Assembly (NCBI RefSeq): GCF_027622875.1
Contig: NZ_JAPZVP010000001.1
Span: forward strand, 301,142-365,141
From: Glycomyces luteolus
Lineage (GTDB): Bacteria > Actinomycetota > Actinomycetes > Mycobacteriales > Micromonosporaceae
Reading direction: 5' to 3'
DNA: 64,000 nucleotides
In this document: piece by piece, positions 3,010 to 45,246 of the stretch
Layout: each line of letters starts with the position of its first letter
How positions within the stretch are numbered: position 1 is the stretch's first letter
Made by a program: the position numbers and the translations under genes
Notes under the pieces: generated by a model
Databases searched by the model: none
What the model saw: only the letters and a program-made list of their open reading frames with translations
What the model was told of the DNA's origin: nothing

Positions 3010-3045
3010 CTAGACTCCTTTAGGTCCCGCCAGGAGAAAGACGTT

Positions 3046-4107
3046 ATGAGCACAGACATTGAGGCTGGCCTGCTCCAGCCCGAGGCCCTCGCCGGGGCCG
3101 TCAAGGACGCCGCCGCGATCATCGCGGCCGCCTCCAACCTTGAGGAACTCGCCGCCGCCAAGTCCGCCACGCTCGGTGACAAGGCACCGGTTTCCTTGGC
3201 CCGCAGGGCTATCGGTTCGATCCCGGGCAAGGAGCGCGGTGAGGCCGGCCGCAACGTGAACGCCGCCCGCACCGAGATCACCGGCCTGTACGAGGCCCGC
3301 GAGGAGATCCTCAAGGCCGCCGAGGCCGCGCGCATCCTCCGCGAGGAGACCGTCGACGTCACGGCCCGCACGGCCCGCCGCCGCGAAGGCGCGCGCCACC
3401 CGATCAACGTCCAGATGGACCGCATCGCCGACCTGTTCGTCGCCATGGGCTACGAGATCGGCGAAGGCCCCGAGGTCGAGCTGGAATGGTTCAACTTCGA
3501 CGCGCTCAACATCCACCCGGACCACCCGGCCCGGACCATGATGGACACCTTCCACATCGCCGACGGCAAGGGCGAGTACGGCTCGAACATGGTGCTGCGC
3601 ACGCACACCTCGACCGTGCAGATCCACACCATGCTCACGCAGGAGCCGCCGATCTACACGGTCGCGCCCGGCCGCGTGTACCGGACCGACGAGGTCGACG
3701 CGACGCACTCGCCCGTGTTCCACCAGACCGAGGGCCTCGTGGTCGACAAGGGCATCACCATGGCCGATCTCAAGGGCACGCTCGACCACTTCGCGAAGTC
3801 GGTCTTCGGCGCCGAGGCGATCACCCGCCTGCGCCCCTCGTACTTCCCGTTCACCGAGCCGAGCGCCGAGGTCGACGTCTGGTTCGCCGCGCACAAGGAC
3901 GGGCCGCGCTGGATCGAGTGGGGGGGCTGCGGCATGGTCAACCCGCGCGTGCTGCGCGCCTGCGGGATCGACCCCGACGTGTACTCGGGCTTCGCGTTCG
4001 GGATGGGCGTGGAGCGCGCGCTCATGCTGCGCCACGGCATCACCGACCTGCGCGACATCATCGACGGCGACGTCCGGTTCCCCGCCGGGCTGAAGGTGGA
4101 GGAGTAG
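3046..4107 (+). CDS. pheS: Phenylalanyl-tRNA synthetase alpha subunit
   Basis: The 353-residue catalytic subunit of the alpha2beta2 enzyme charges tRNA-Phe. An N-terminal coiled-coil arm (residues ~15-100) is followed by the class II core: ITRLRPSYFPFTEPSAEVDV, the GGCGMVNPRVL segment and motif 3 GFAFGMGVERALMLRHGI. The ATG at 3046 follows AGGAGA (3032-3037) and gives the usual length; the frame remains open upstream but that stretch belongs to the TrmH region. pheT starts 3 bp after the stop. Confidence 0.97.
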   Translation: MSTDIEAGLLQPEALAGAVKDAAAIIAAASNLEELAAAKSATLGDKAPVSLARRAIGSIPGKERGEAGRNVNAARTEITGLYEAREEILKAAEAARILREETVDVTARTARRREGARHPINVQMDRIADLFVAMGYEIGEGPEVELEWFNFDALNIHPDHPARTMMDTFHIADGKGEYGSNMVLRTHTSTVQIHTMLTQEPPIYTVAPGRVYRTDEVDATHSPVFHQTEGLVVDKGITMADLKGTLDHFAKSVFGAEAITRLRPSYFPFTEPSAEVDVWFAAHKDGPRWIEWGGCGMVNPRVLRACGIDPDVYSGFAFGMGVERALMLRHGITDLRDIIDGDVRFPAGLKVEE

Positions 4108-29834: not shown

Positions 29835-29907
29835 GCGGACGTAGCGCAGTTGGTAGCGCGACACCTTGCCAAGGTGTAGGTCGCCGGTTCGATCCCGGTC
29901 GTCCGCT
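29835..29907 (+). tRNA. tRNA-Gly (GCC)
   Basis: Cloverleaf: acceptor GCGGACG/CGTCCGC, D-arm GCGC...GCGC, anticodon stem ACACC/GGTGT with anticodon GCC at 29868-29870, T-arm GCCGG-TTCGATC-CCGGT. TAAAGT at 29784-29789 may be the -10. Identical over 73 nt to the copy at 44469. No CCA is encoded. Confidence 0.96.
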
Positions 29908-43030: not shown

Positions 43031-43693
43031 ATGCTCGCCGACCACCTGCCGATCTACCGACTGCGCCTCAGGACCGAACGCCTCGAACTGCGCCTGCCCG
43101 AGAACTTCGACGAGATCGCCGAACTGGCCGACACCGCGGCAGCGGGCGTCCACGACCCCGGCTTCATGCCCTTCGGCATCCCGTGGACCGCCGACGGACC
43201 CAAGACCACAGCCCGGAACGTCGCGATCTACTACCACCACGTCATCGGTCGCTGGGACGCCCGAGCCTGGACCCTGCCCTTCTACGTCTTCCTCGAAGGA
43301 CGACCTATCGGCGTGCAGGACATCAAAGGCGTGGAACTCGACGTCACCCGCGAAGTCGCCACCGGCTCCTGGATCGGCCGCGCCCACCAGGGCAAGGGCA
43401 TCGGCAAGGAGATGCGTGCCGCCGTGCTCCACTTCGCCTTCGCCGAGCTCGGCGCCGACTACGCGACCAGCAGCTCGTACGACGCCAATGCCGCTTCCGC
43501 CGGCGTCTCCCGCAGCCTCGGCTACCGCGACGACGGCATCAGGCTCCCTGTGGTGCAAGGCGTTCGACGCACTGAATTGCGCTGGCGGCTCTCACGCGAT
43601 GACTGGGAGGCCCACCGCAAACACGAGGTCGTCGTCGAAGGGCTCGACGACGACGTGAAGGACATGCTCGGTCTAACGAAGGAAACCTCATGA
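43031..43693 (+). CDS. GNAT acetyltransferase, RimJ/RimL-like (copy A)
   Basis: 220 residues. The acetyl-CoA loop is GRAHQGKGIGKEMRAAVLHFA, followed by DANAASAGVSRSLGYRDDG. It belongs to the Acetyltransf_3 type that modifies protein N-termini or small molecules; the substrate is unknown. The gene overlaps copy B by 4 bp (ATGA). The two are roughly two-thirds identical along their whole length. Confidence 0.88.
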   Translation: MLADHLPIYRLRLRTERLELRLPENFDEIAELADTAAAGVHDPGFMPFGIPWTADGPKTTARNVAIYYHHVIGRWDARAWTLPFYVFLEGRPIGVQDIKGVELDVTREVATGSWIGRAHQGKGIGKEMRAAVLHFAFAELGADYATSSSYDANAASAGVSRSLGYRDDGIRLPVVQGVRRTELRWRLSRDDWEAHRKHEVVVEGLDDDVKDMLGLTKETS

Positions 43694-44352
43694 CGCTCGC
43701 CGACCACCTCCCGATCTACAGGCTCCGGCTGCGGACAGAGCGCCTCGAGCTCCGCATCGCTCGCGACGACGAAATCGGCGCCTTGGCGGACGCCGCCGCG
43801 GCGGGCGTCCACGACCCGGACTTCATGCCCTTCCTCTTCCCCTGGACCGACGCCACTCCCGCCGAGCGCGGCCGCAGCGTCGCCCTCTGGTGCCACCGCG
43901 TCATCGGCCGCTGGAGCAAGGACGACTGGACCCTCCCCTTCACGGTCTTCTTCGAGGGCCGACCCATCGGCATCCAGGAGATCGACGGCAAGGAGTTCGC
44001 CCTCAAACGCGAAGTGGGCACGGGCTCGTGGCTCGGGCTGGCGAACCACGGTAAAGGCATCGGGACCGAGATGCGCGCCGCGGTACTCCACTTCGCCTTC
44101 TCGGGCCTCGGCGCGGACTGGGCCACGAGCGCGTCGTTCGACGGCAATGCCGCTTCGGCGGGCGTCTCTCGCAAGCTCGGGTACCAGGCGGACGGCCGCG
44201 AATACCACATCGTGCAGGGCGTGCGGCGACTCGACTGGCGCTGGCGTCTCTCCCGCGAGGACTGGGAGGCCCACCGCAAACACGAGGTCGCGATCGATGG
44301 TCTGGACGCCGAGGTCCTCGCGATGCTCGGCCTGGGCGAGTCCGAGCAGTGA
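43690..44352 (+). CDS. GNAT acetyltransferase, RimJ/RimL-like (copy B)
   Basis: 220 residues, paralogue of the gene before it: both start xLADHLPIYRLRLRTERLEL and end in RLSRxDWEAHRKHEV. The acetyl-CoA loop is GLANHGKGIGTEMRAAVLHFA. The substrate-side residues in the first third differ most, so the copies may act on different targets. Confidence 0.88.
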   Translation: MTLADHLPIYRLRLRTERLELRIARDDEIGALADAAAAGVHDPDFMPFLFPWTDATPAERGRSVALWCHRVIGRWSKDDWTLPFTVFFEGRPIGIQEIDGKEFALKREVGTGSWLGLANHGKGIGTEMRAAVLHFAFSGLGADWATSASFDGNAASAGVSRKLGYQADGREYHIVQGVRRLDWRWRLSREDWEAHRKHEVAIDGLDAEVLAMLGLGESEQ

Positions 44353-44387: not shown

Positions 44388-44468
44388 CAATCGGTCCCAA
44401 GGCCCTATCAAGGCCCGGTGAACGATGCGCTAAAGTAATCACCGTTCCCCGGTCAACACCGGAGAAAT

Positions 44469-44541
44469 GCGGACGTAGCGCAGTTGGTAGCGCGACACCT
44501 TGCCAAGGTGTAGGTCGCCGGTTCGATCCCGGTCGTCCGCT
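44469..44541 (+). tRNA. tRNA-Gly (GCC), second copy
   Basis: Same 73 nt as the gene at 29835 with all stems intact; anticodon GCC. TAAAGT at 44431-44436 is a likely -10, as in the first copy. It heads the tandem array that follows. Confidence 0.95.
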
Positions 44542-44554
44542 CAGAAGGAGAAGG

Positions 44555-44578
44555 CCCGGTAGTGATGCCGGGTTTTTT
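44555..44578 (+). terminator. terminator of tRNA-Gly copy 2
   Basis: CCCGGTA-gtga-TGCCGGG followed by six T. The same hairpin, with compensating or wobble changes, recurs every 164 bp downstream. Confidence 0.9.
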
Positions 44579-44607
44579 CGTTGCCCGGGAATCGGGGCCT
44601 GCTCGGG

Positions 44608-44705
44608 GGGGACGTAGCGCAGTTGGCGGTGCTGATTGCAGCGCTTCGCGCTGGTGCGACACCTTGCCAAGGGGTAGGTCGCCGGTTCGATCCCGGTCGT
44701 CCGCT
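44608..44705 (+). pseudogene. D-loop-expanded tRNA-Gly derivative, unit 1
   Basis: Compared with the intact tRNA-Gly: the D-loop grows from 8 to 33 nt and contains the extra hairpin CAGCGC-TTC-GCGCTG; the acceptor has a G2-G71 mismatch; the anticodon stem has an A29-G41 mismatch. Anticodon GCC, T-arm and the D-stem (one G-T wobble) are kept. It may be a pseudo-tRNA or a tRNA-like non-coding RNA. Confidence 0.85.
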
Positions 44706-44771
44706 CAGAAGGAGAAAGCCCGGCAGTGATGCCGGGTTTTTTCGTTGCCCGGGAATCGGGGCCTGCTCGGG

Positions 44772-44869
44772 GGGGACGTAGCGCAGTTGGCGGTGCTGAT
44801 TGCAGCGCTTCGCGCTGGTGCGACACCTTGCCAAGGGGTAGGTCGCCGGTTCGATCCCGGTCGTCCGCT
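44772..44869 (+). pseudogene. D-loop-expanded tRNA-Gly derivative, unit 2
   Basis: Identical to unit 1 over 98 nt; the following spacer carries ATTGAG and GTAGCGA variants. Confidence 0.85.
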
Positions 44870-44935
44870 CAGATTGAGAAGGCCCGGTAGCGATGCCGGG
44901 TTTTTTCGTTGCCCGGGAATCGGGGCCTGCTCGGG

Positions 44936-45033
44936 GGGGACGTAGCGCAGTTGGCGGTGCTGATTGCAGCGCTTCGCGCTGGTGCGACACCTTGCCAAGG
45001 GGTAGGTCGCCGGTTCGATCCCGGTCGTCCGCT
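44936..45033 (+). pseudogene. D-loop-expanded tRNA-Gly derivative, unit 3
   Basis: Identical to unit 1 over 98 nt; the following spacer carries ATTGAG with GCAGTGA. Confidence 0.85.
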
Positions 45034-45099
45034 CAGATTGAGAAGGCCCGGCAGTGATGCCGGGTTTTTTCGTTGCCCGGGAATCGGGGCCTGCTCGGG

Positions 45100-45197
45100 G
45101 GGGACGTAGCGCAGTTGGCGGTGCTGATTGCAGCGCTTCGCGCTGGTGCGACACCTTGCCAAGGGGTAGGTCGCCGGTTCGATCCCGGTCGTCCGCT
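45100..45197 (+). pseudogene. D-loop-expanded tRNA-Gly derivative, unit 4
   Basis: Identical to unit 1 over 98 nt; its spacer diverges after the terminator and runs into the end of the array. Confidence 0.85.
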
Positions 45198-45246
45198 CAG
45201 AAGGAGAAGGCCCGGTAGCGATGCCGGGCTTTTTCGTTTCCTGCAG

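Follow-up and report, generated by a model that had tools for sequence, protein, structure and literature searches.

A tRNA-Gly derivative with an added arm at one locus of Glycomyces: tandem copies of a candidate non-coding RNA gene

The window examined here, a stretch of 64,000 nucleotides from the genome of Glycomyces luteolus (designated G000 in the genus comparison, in which G002 is G. niveus), contains an intact tRNA-Gly(GCC) at 44469-44542, identified by ARAGORN and Rfam (69.8 bits), with four units of 164 bp directly behind it. Tandem Repeats Finder reports a single tandem array (44492-45238; period 164, 4.6 copies, 97% matches, score 1417), and within each unit ARAGORN and Rfam locate a tRNA-Gly derivative of 98-99 nt, with starts at 44608, 44772, 44936 and 45100. 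An intact tRNA-Gly(GCC) followed by four such units had been proposed in a preliminary description made by reading the sequence, and all three programs bear this out. The features of the locus are listed below.

44431..44436, + strand: TAAAGT, a -10-like element upstream of the intact tRNA-Gly (sequence reading; sigma-70 scan without a promoter here)
44445..44466, + strand: 5' leader hairpin of the intact tRNA-Gly precursor (folding of 13 genomes)
44469..44542, + strand: intact tRNA-Gly(GCC) (ARAGORN, Rfam; identical in 20 of 21 genus loci)
44555..44578, + strand: terminator-like hairpin and T-run after the intact tRNA-Gly (sequence reading; stem also in minus-strand scan)
44608..44706, + strand: tRNA-Gly derivative, copy 1 (ARAGORN, Rfam, alignment)
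44639..44653, + strand: inserted hairpin of copy 1, with a 6-bp stem and a 3-nt loop (conserved in Glycomyces)
44719..44742, + strand: terminator-like element after copy 1 (sequence reading; minus-strand scan reading)
44772..44870, + strand: tRNA-Gly derivative, copy 2 (ARAGORN, Rfam, alignment)
44803..44817, + strand: inserted hairpin of copy 2 (15-mer match)
44883..44906, + strand: terminator-like element after copy 2 (sequence reading)
44936..45034, + strand: tRNA-Gly derivative, copy 3 (ARAGORN, Rfam, alignment)
44967..44981, + strand: inserted hairpin of copy 3 (15-mer match)
45047..45070, + strand: terminator-like element after copy 3 (sequence reading)
45100..45198, + strand: tRNA-Gly derivative, copy 4 (ARAGORN, Rfam, alignment)
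45131..45145, + strand: inserted hairpin of copy 4 (15-mer match)
45211..45234, + strand: terminator-like element after copy 4 (sequence reading; minus-strand scan reading)

Each derivative copy scores 34.7 bits against the Rfam tRNA family (RF00005; gathering score 29), the only family to reach threshold between 44340 and 45320, where the other families gave 12 sub-threshold matches. The tRNA parts of all four copies are identical, as the preliminary description had held, and this identity extends across 103 bases; whole units are 97-98% alike among the copies in the window. The mismatches G2-G71 and A29-G41 are likewise visible in all four copies, as are spacer variants that occur between units in mixed combinations, both as originally described. 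Because every copy has both mismatches, they must be older than the amplification; among the rows aligned they are confined to the species of the window. Every derivative copy read through the region from D-loop to anticodon arm, here and in relatives, contains about 25 extra bases. ARAGORN assigns all four derivatives of the window (44608-45198) to tRNA-Glu(TTC), a misreading, because the inserted hairpin is mistaken for an anticodon arm; derivatives of relatives are called Glu, Ala (G009) or unknown isotype (G002, G011). For annotators this means that copies of the derivative are reported by ARAGORN as additional tRNA-Glu genes, and automatic annotation may be inflating Glycomyces tRNA counts in this way. 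A second intact tRNA-Gly(GCC) of the window lies at 29835, within a Gly-Val-Cys cluster.

Terminator-like hairpins, read in the sequence as CCCGG-N8-CCGGG with a T-run, follow the intact tRNA and each derivative copy, and separate the units of the array. The earlier claim that every unit has its own terminator stands in so far as hairpin and T-run are visible after each. The terminator scanner picked up no more than three of these stems, each of them on the minus strand; shuffled sequences averaged 1.3 sites, compared with these 3. A -10-like (TANNNT-like) word occurs in all 13 intact tRNA-Gly leaders read, and none was seen on reading the spacers of the array. A sigma-70 scan gave no promoter in the region, a weak negative, since it misses the intact tRNA's own promoter too. 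The leader hairpin of the intact tRNA-Gly forms in 12 of the 13 leaders folded (G012 folds otherwise), and its sequence varies among species. The derived unit of G001 and of G003 is a repeat of the intact precursor that runs from approximately the expected transcription start to the terminator and takes in the leader hairpin; the trailer behind the intact tRNA resembles that behind the derivative within G000, G001 and G002, and differs from it in G008, G011 and G013. Downstream, 19 of 21 loci have a TetR-family gene; no TetR match was seen in the 6-kb stretch of G003, where the derivative is present. Upstream of the tRNA, at 43031-44352 of the window, lie two adjacent paralogous GNAT acetyltransferases (Pfam Acetyltransf_3), of which relatives have zero, one or two at this place. 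A functional link between derivative and GNATs was considered and rejected: G001 and G003 carry the derivative with no GNAT match in the stretch, and G004, G005, G018 and G019 have GNATs and no derivative.

The genus was compared with one genome per species. The tRNA-Gly locus is present in 21 of 22 Glycomyces genomes, that of the window included, and was not found in G007, where a tRNA-Phe match was the only one. The search for the insert in relatives and the comparison of copy number, both suggested in the preliminary description, gave a derivative with hairpin at the same locus in 15 of the 22 genomes, and copy numbers from 0 to 4 across the genus; an exact hairpin pattern matched 14, always at the tRNA-Gly locus, G009 having a loop variant. 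Complete units occur in 11 genomes, four in G000, three in G. niveus and one in each of nine (G001, G003, G006, G008, G009, G011, G012, G013, G016). The derivative is interrupted by an assembly gap in two others (G014, by a run of N; G015, where the contig ends), which may hold further copies; it is decayed with retention of the hairpin in G010 (T-arm and T-loop disrupted) and G017 (3' half lost), reduced to a 5' stub in G021, and missing from five of the 21 genomes that have the locus (G004, G005, G018, G019, G020). Since draft assemblies may collapse repeats, these copy numbers are minima and the losses possibly in part artefacts of assembly. In G001, G006 and G021 a third unit is present only in part, which has the appearance of a contraction. 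Carriers fall on both sides of the main split in a tree based on parts of four proteins encoded in the flanks (542-1687 residues from each genome; rooted by choice, with no outgroup), and the derivative is therefore probably ancestral to the genus. The five losses and three decayed forms also imply that it is dispensable. Random decay or absence in close relatives, along with the lack of any transcript, had been named at the outset as the outcome that would speak against a meaningful array, and this is half borne out, by the eight genomes just mentioned.

Outside Glycomyces the derivative was not found by exact-pattern or similarity searches. The exact pattern, a tRNA-Gly(GCC) whose D-loop and anticodon arm are 18-48 bases apart, which sees only relatives with matching flanking letters, was run over 84,980 species (one genome each) and returned 30 stretches: 12 from Glycomyces (11 records) and 18 from elsewhere, the latter comprising 3 ordinary tRNA-Gly with a chance upstream match and 15 in which no tRNA was called. 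Among viral contigs it returned 5 stretches, none with a tRNA called. A covariance-model search with stricter filters, covering 121 genomes of the family (8 of them Glycomyces), gave 104-nt matches solely in Glycomyces among the matches listed, those listed from other genera being 79 nt long, hence without the insert, and below 78 bits. On direct reading, three genomes of other genera (G025, G033, G034) have tRNA-Gly(GCC) with ordinary D-loops. Phage or plasmid origin was rejected, in that the 3 phage and 2 plasmid records found match 26-41% of the unit, namely its tRNA part; one of these matches starts inside the last bases of the hairpin. Open-licence full-text literature yielded no description of such an element among the matches listed. 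The derivative of G010 has a second inserted hairpin, in its T-arm and also with a UUC loop (reverse complement of L038, about 3021-3451). A dispersed palindrome or mobile hairpin family was rejected: the hairpin 15-mer of the window occurs in its own genome in the derivatives alone, with no second exact copy elsewhere, the 18-base form is confined within the genus to the tRNA-Gly locus, and the 15-mer of the second G010 hairpin occurs once in G010 and in none of three other genomes searched.

The insert was initially read as a hairpin within a D-loop enlarged to 33 nt. An alternative reading, in which a normal D-arm is closed by the first GYGY and an extra arm precedes the anticodon stem, is better by 1.6-5.3 kcal/mol in all 11 sequences on which both shapes were imposed. 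Pairing between the first GYGY and the GCGC of the D-stem holds in 11 of 11 covering rows, two positions of the GYGY being variable, and this pairing, together with the imposed energies, makes a normal D-arm plus fifth arm the likelier shape. The truncated G017, outside the 11-row count, breaks the pairing, and for G009 the D-loop pairing comes out ahead in free folding (0.86). When folded freely, all 11 sequences have a minimum 6.5-14.8 kcal/mol below the five-arm shape; the five-arm form is dominant in five (G002, G003, G006, G008, G011), and the probability of the hairpin is at least 0.66 in seven and at most 0.16 in four (G000, G016, G009, G012). In the copy of the window it is 0.02, the 3' strand of the hairpin pairing with the D-stem, and this copy folds no better than its shuffles (z -0.66, 56 of 200). 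These predictions suggest that the derivative RNA may be two-state or may need a partner, or that the conserved thing may be DNA. In the 13 aligned rows used for counting hairpin pairs (G010 and G017 left out), the hairpin is paired in every cell, and one pair is changed on both sides (G-C in 9, A-U in 4), a single instance, because the four A-U genomes form one clade; the other pairs do not vary. The number of pairs with a two-sided change, 1, is no higher than shuffling yields (0.8; 412 of 500). The covariation score does exceed that of shuffles (1 of 500), but related sequences can pass this control even where there is no structure, and the alifold covariation term is +0.15. Template switching can produce double changes in one mutation, according to the available excerpt of PMC8794818.

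A more telling property of the insert is its rate of change. Parsimony changes were counted on the flanking-protein tree for 15 genomes, giving 3 changes over 16 sites (0.19 per site) for the hairpin with its preceding G and none over the 5 sites of the GTGCG behind it, versus 21 over 5 sites (4.2 per site) for the linker before it, so that per-site change in the hairpin is about 20 times lower than in the adjoining linker. The CxGYGY ahead of the linker had 10 changes over 6 sites, five of them at x, the first GYGY being only fairly stable (5 over 4 sites), and the tRNA body of the derivative had 4 over 19 sites in its 5' part and 7 over 47 in its 3' part. Fourfold sites in the neighbouring genes changed 2.3 times per site in TetR (61 sites), 2.1 in MFS (206) and 2.6 in phosphoketolase (52), about 2.2 overall; 54 of the total of 319 were unchanged, and among 100,000 resamples of 16 such sites, treated as independent, none had 3 or fewer changes (mean 35.9). 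Bounds that make no use of the tree agree, allowing at most 9 changes over 16 sites in the hairpin and at least 9 over 5 in the linker. No exact donor was found for the 15-mer in its own genome or for the 18-base form in the genus, so that conversion with any exact copy found does not explain the uniformity of the insert. This, with the slowness of the hairpin, argues for probable purifying selection on the added arm, as judged from comparative sequence. The tRNA body, for its part, could be kept alike by conversion with its intact neighbour. Selection on the RNA had first been suggested from the uniformity of the RNA parts within the window, an argument that is weak, since units 97-98% alike look like recent amplification and exchange; what sustains the suggestion is conservation of the insert across much of the genus.

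Two rivals to a selected RNA are serious, an unselected array and a palindromic DNA site. According to the first, which we regard as unlikely, a damaged duplicate of the tRNA forms a neutral, unstable array on which crossing-over and conversion act without selection. Much about the locus is in keeping with it, including the range of copy number from 0 to 4, the partial third units, the decayed forms and five losses, the trailers alike in three genomes (though not in G008, G011 and G013), the uncompensated pair breaks in the tRNA part and the lack of any promoter seen in the units. Parts with no donor should nonetheless drift at the neutral rate in such an array, and the donorless hairpin, at 0.19 per site, does not approach the linker or the fourfold sites. 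This slow change disfavours plain amplification of a damaged tRNA, one of the options initially offered, and supports selection on the added arm.

The second, distinctly less likely, supposes an element acting at the level of DNA, namely an inverted repeat that a recombinase or a dimeric DNA-binding protein would recognise, with the tRNA copy as its carrier. The conserved 15-mer is indeed a perfect palindrome with a 3-base centre, its sole stem change is symmetric, and a TetR-family gene adjoins 19 of the 21 loci. Set against these points, the exact 15-mer lies nowhere else in its own genome, which argues, for exact matches only, that there is no second operator such as one at the TetR promoter; G003 carries the derivative with no TetR match in its 6-kb stretch; and conservation extends asymmetrically into GTGCG while the first GYGY keeps its pairing with the D-stem, as would be expected of RNA.

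A working five-arm isodecoder of tRNA-Gly, charged by GlyRS and used in translation or as a non-ribosomal donor of glycine, is a slightly weaker candidate again. The derivative keeps G18-G19 in all covering rows and the G-U at 49-65 and the anticodon loop with GCC in all 13 aligned rows, and of the 11 genomes in which units are complete, 7 keep every stem pair. Nevertheless, the changed pairs in its acceptor, anticodon and T stems are all broken (5 pairs, 0 compensated), with breaks in the acceptor or anticodon stem in G000, G013, G009 and G014 and in the T-stem in G012, and G003 has changes in the T-loop; at the same locus the intact tRNA-Gly is identical in 20 of 21 genomes, and the window alone has two intact tRNA-Gly(GCC) genes. 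Uncompensated stem breaks beside a near-invariant intact tRNA argue that the derivative is not a normal translational tRNA. Nor does it have the normal-length D-arm, junction and anticodon arm of a functional tRNA-Gly(GCC), and it is better classed as conserved tRNA-derived sequence without the constraint of a translational tRNA. In Staphylococcus, glycine of the cell-wall bridges is added by Fem enzymes. A role as glycine donor for a FemAB-type peptidoglycan enzyme found no support, PF02388 having matched in 0 of 22 Glycomyces genomes at E 0.001, in a search whose control matched in 3 of 14 genomes. Very improbable is a decoy competing with tRNA-Gly for a glycine T-box riboswitch: the GCC anticodon loop is kept in 13 of 13 rows as such a decoy would need, but a search for RF00230 in the 22 genomes gave none over the cut-off and weak matches in 7. 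Three of these were read with their flanks, and two T-box-like RNAs below the Rfam cut-off, L104 (G020) and L106 (G001), adjoin an open frame that by its look we take to be the start of an isoleucyl-tRNA synthetase; a glycine T-box decoy is thus not supported.

On balance, then, we favour a selected functional RNA, that is, a Glycomyces-specific non-coding RNA gene derived from a duplicated tRNA-Gly(GCC), as the somewhat more probable than improbable account of these sequences. Its best reading places the derivative outside general translation, with the added arm as its putative working part. That this arm is a binding module for a protein or RNA partner is a tentative proposal. More tentative still is the idea that the derivatives form a genus-specific class of five-arm, tRNA-derived small RNAs in which insertion of the hairpin made a tRNA gene into a two-state, copy-dosed regulatory scaffold; as a basis for two states, which we hold with the same reserve, the D-stem could pair with either the first GYGY or the invariant GUGC, and is matched also by a strand of the hairpin. 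A history of the selected RNA may be envisaged in which a transcript-length piece, from leader to terminator, would have been duplicated early in the genus, and unit number altered later by unequal crossing-over. Leak-through from the promoter of tRNA-Gly would account for transcription of the derivative, which tRNA-processing enzymes would then excise, yielding a tRNA-like small RNA whose added arm might bind its protein or RNA partner, and whose tRNA body would serve as a scaffold that owes its uniformity in part to conversion with the adjacent intact tRNA-Gly. With four copies the dose of the RNA would be higher.

Several known systems offer partial parallels, as far as the available excerpts of the reports describe them. 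The tRNA-Other of Bacillus cereus is a pseudo-tRNA with a Trp anticodon and a putative promoter upstream, inside a larger transcript (PMC3399842); like the derivative, it resembles a tRNA gene but lies outside translation, occurs in some of the relatives and can be dispensed with, and it has been proposed as part of a regulatory RNA. The derivative differs in its GCC anticodon and added arm, in its tandem position directly after the parent tRNA, and in that no promoter was seen. The non-proteinogenic tRNA-Gly isoacceptors of Staphylococcus, which supply glycine for cell-wall bridges (PMC4052509), are likewise additional tRNA-Gly genes with a possible role outside translation, yet have lost the G18-G19 and G49-U65 that the derivative keeps, in a genus where FemAB was found in none of the 22 genomes. 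Unusual natural tRNAs such as tRNA-Sec and those of mitochondria have longer D-stems or missing arms (PMC7609411), and so share an altered arm geometry, but not a fifth arm between the D and anticodon stems. Bacterial tRNA pseudogenes (PMC9858662) are similarly tRNA-derived and longer than functional tRNAs; unlike them, the Glycomyces insert is conserved at one locus genus-wide and changes slowly.

From a broader perspective, a tRNA gene that gained a fifth arm, and kept it while its old stems decayed, would, if our reading is true, be a clear case of re-use. This derivative can be traced through one genus in its natural losses, single copies and amplifications, all among cultivated strains, and its function is therefore testable by simple deletion. 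To our knowledge, bacterial relatives of tRNA outside translation are few and mostly found singly.

Two genomes show further variation at the locus. In G004, which lacks the derivative, a series of short palindromes around GTAC lies between tRNA-Gly and TetR (L044, about 2112-2542). In G021 (L045), a second near-intact tRNA-Gly, with GGGA in place of GGTA in its D-loop, lies between the intact tRNA-Gly and the stub of the derivative, as if exchange had removed the insert.
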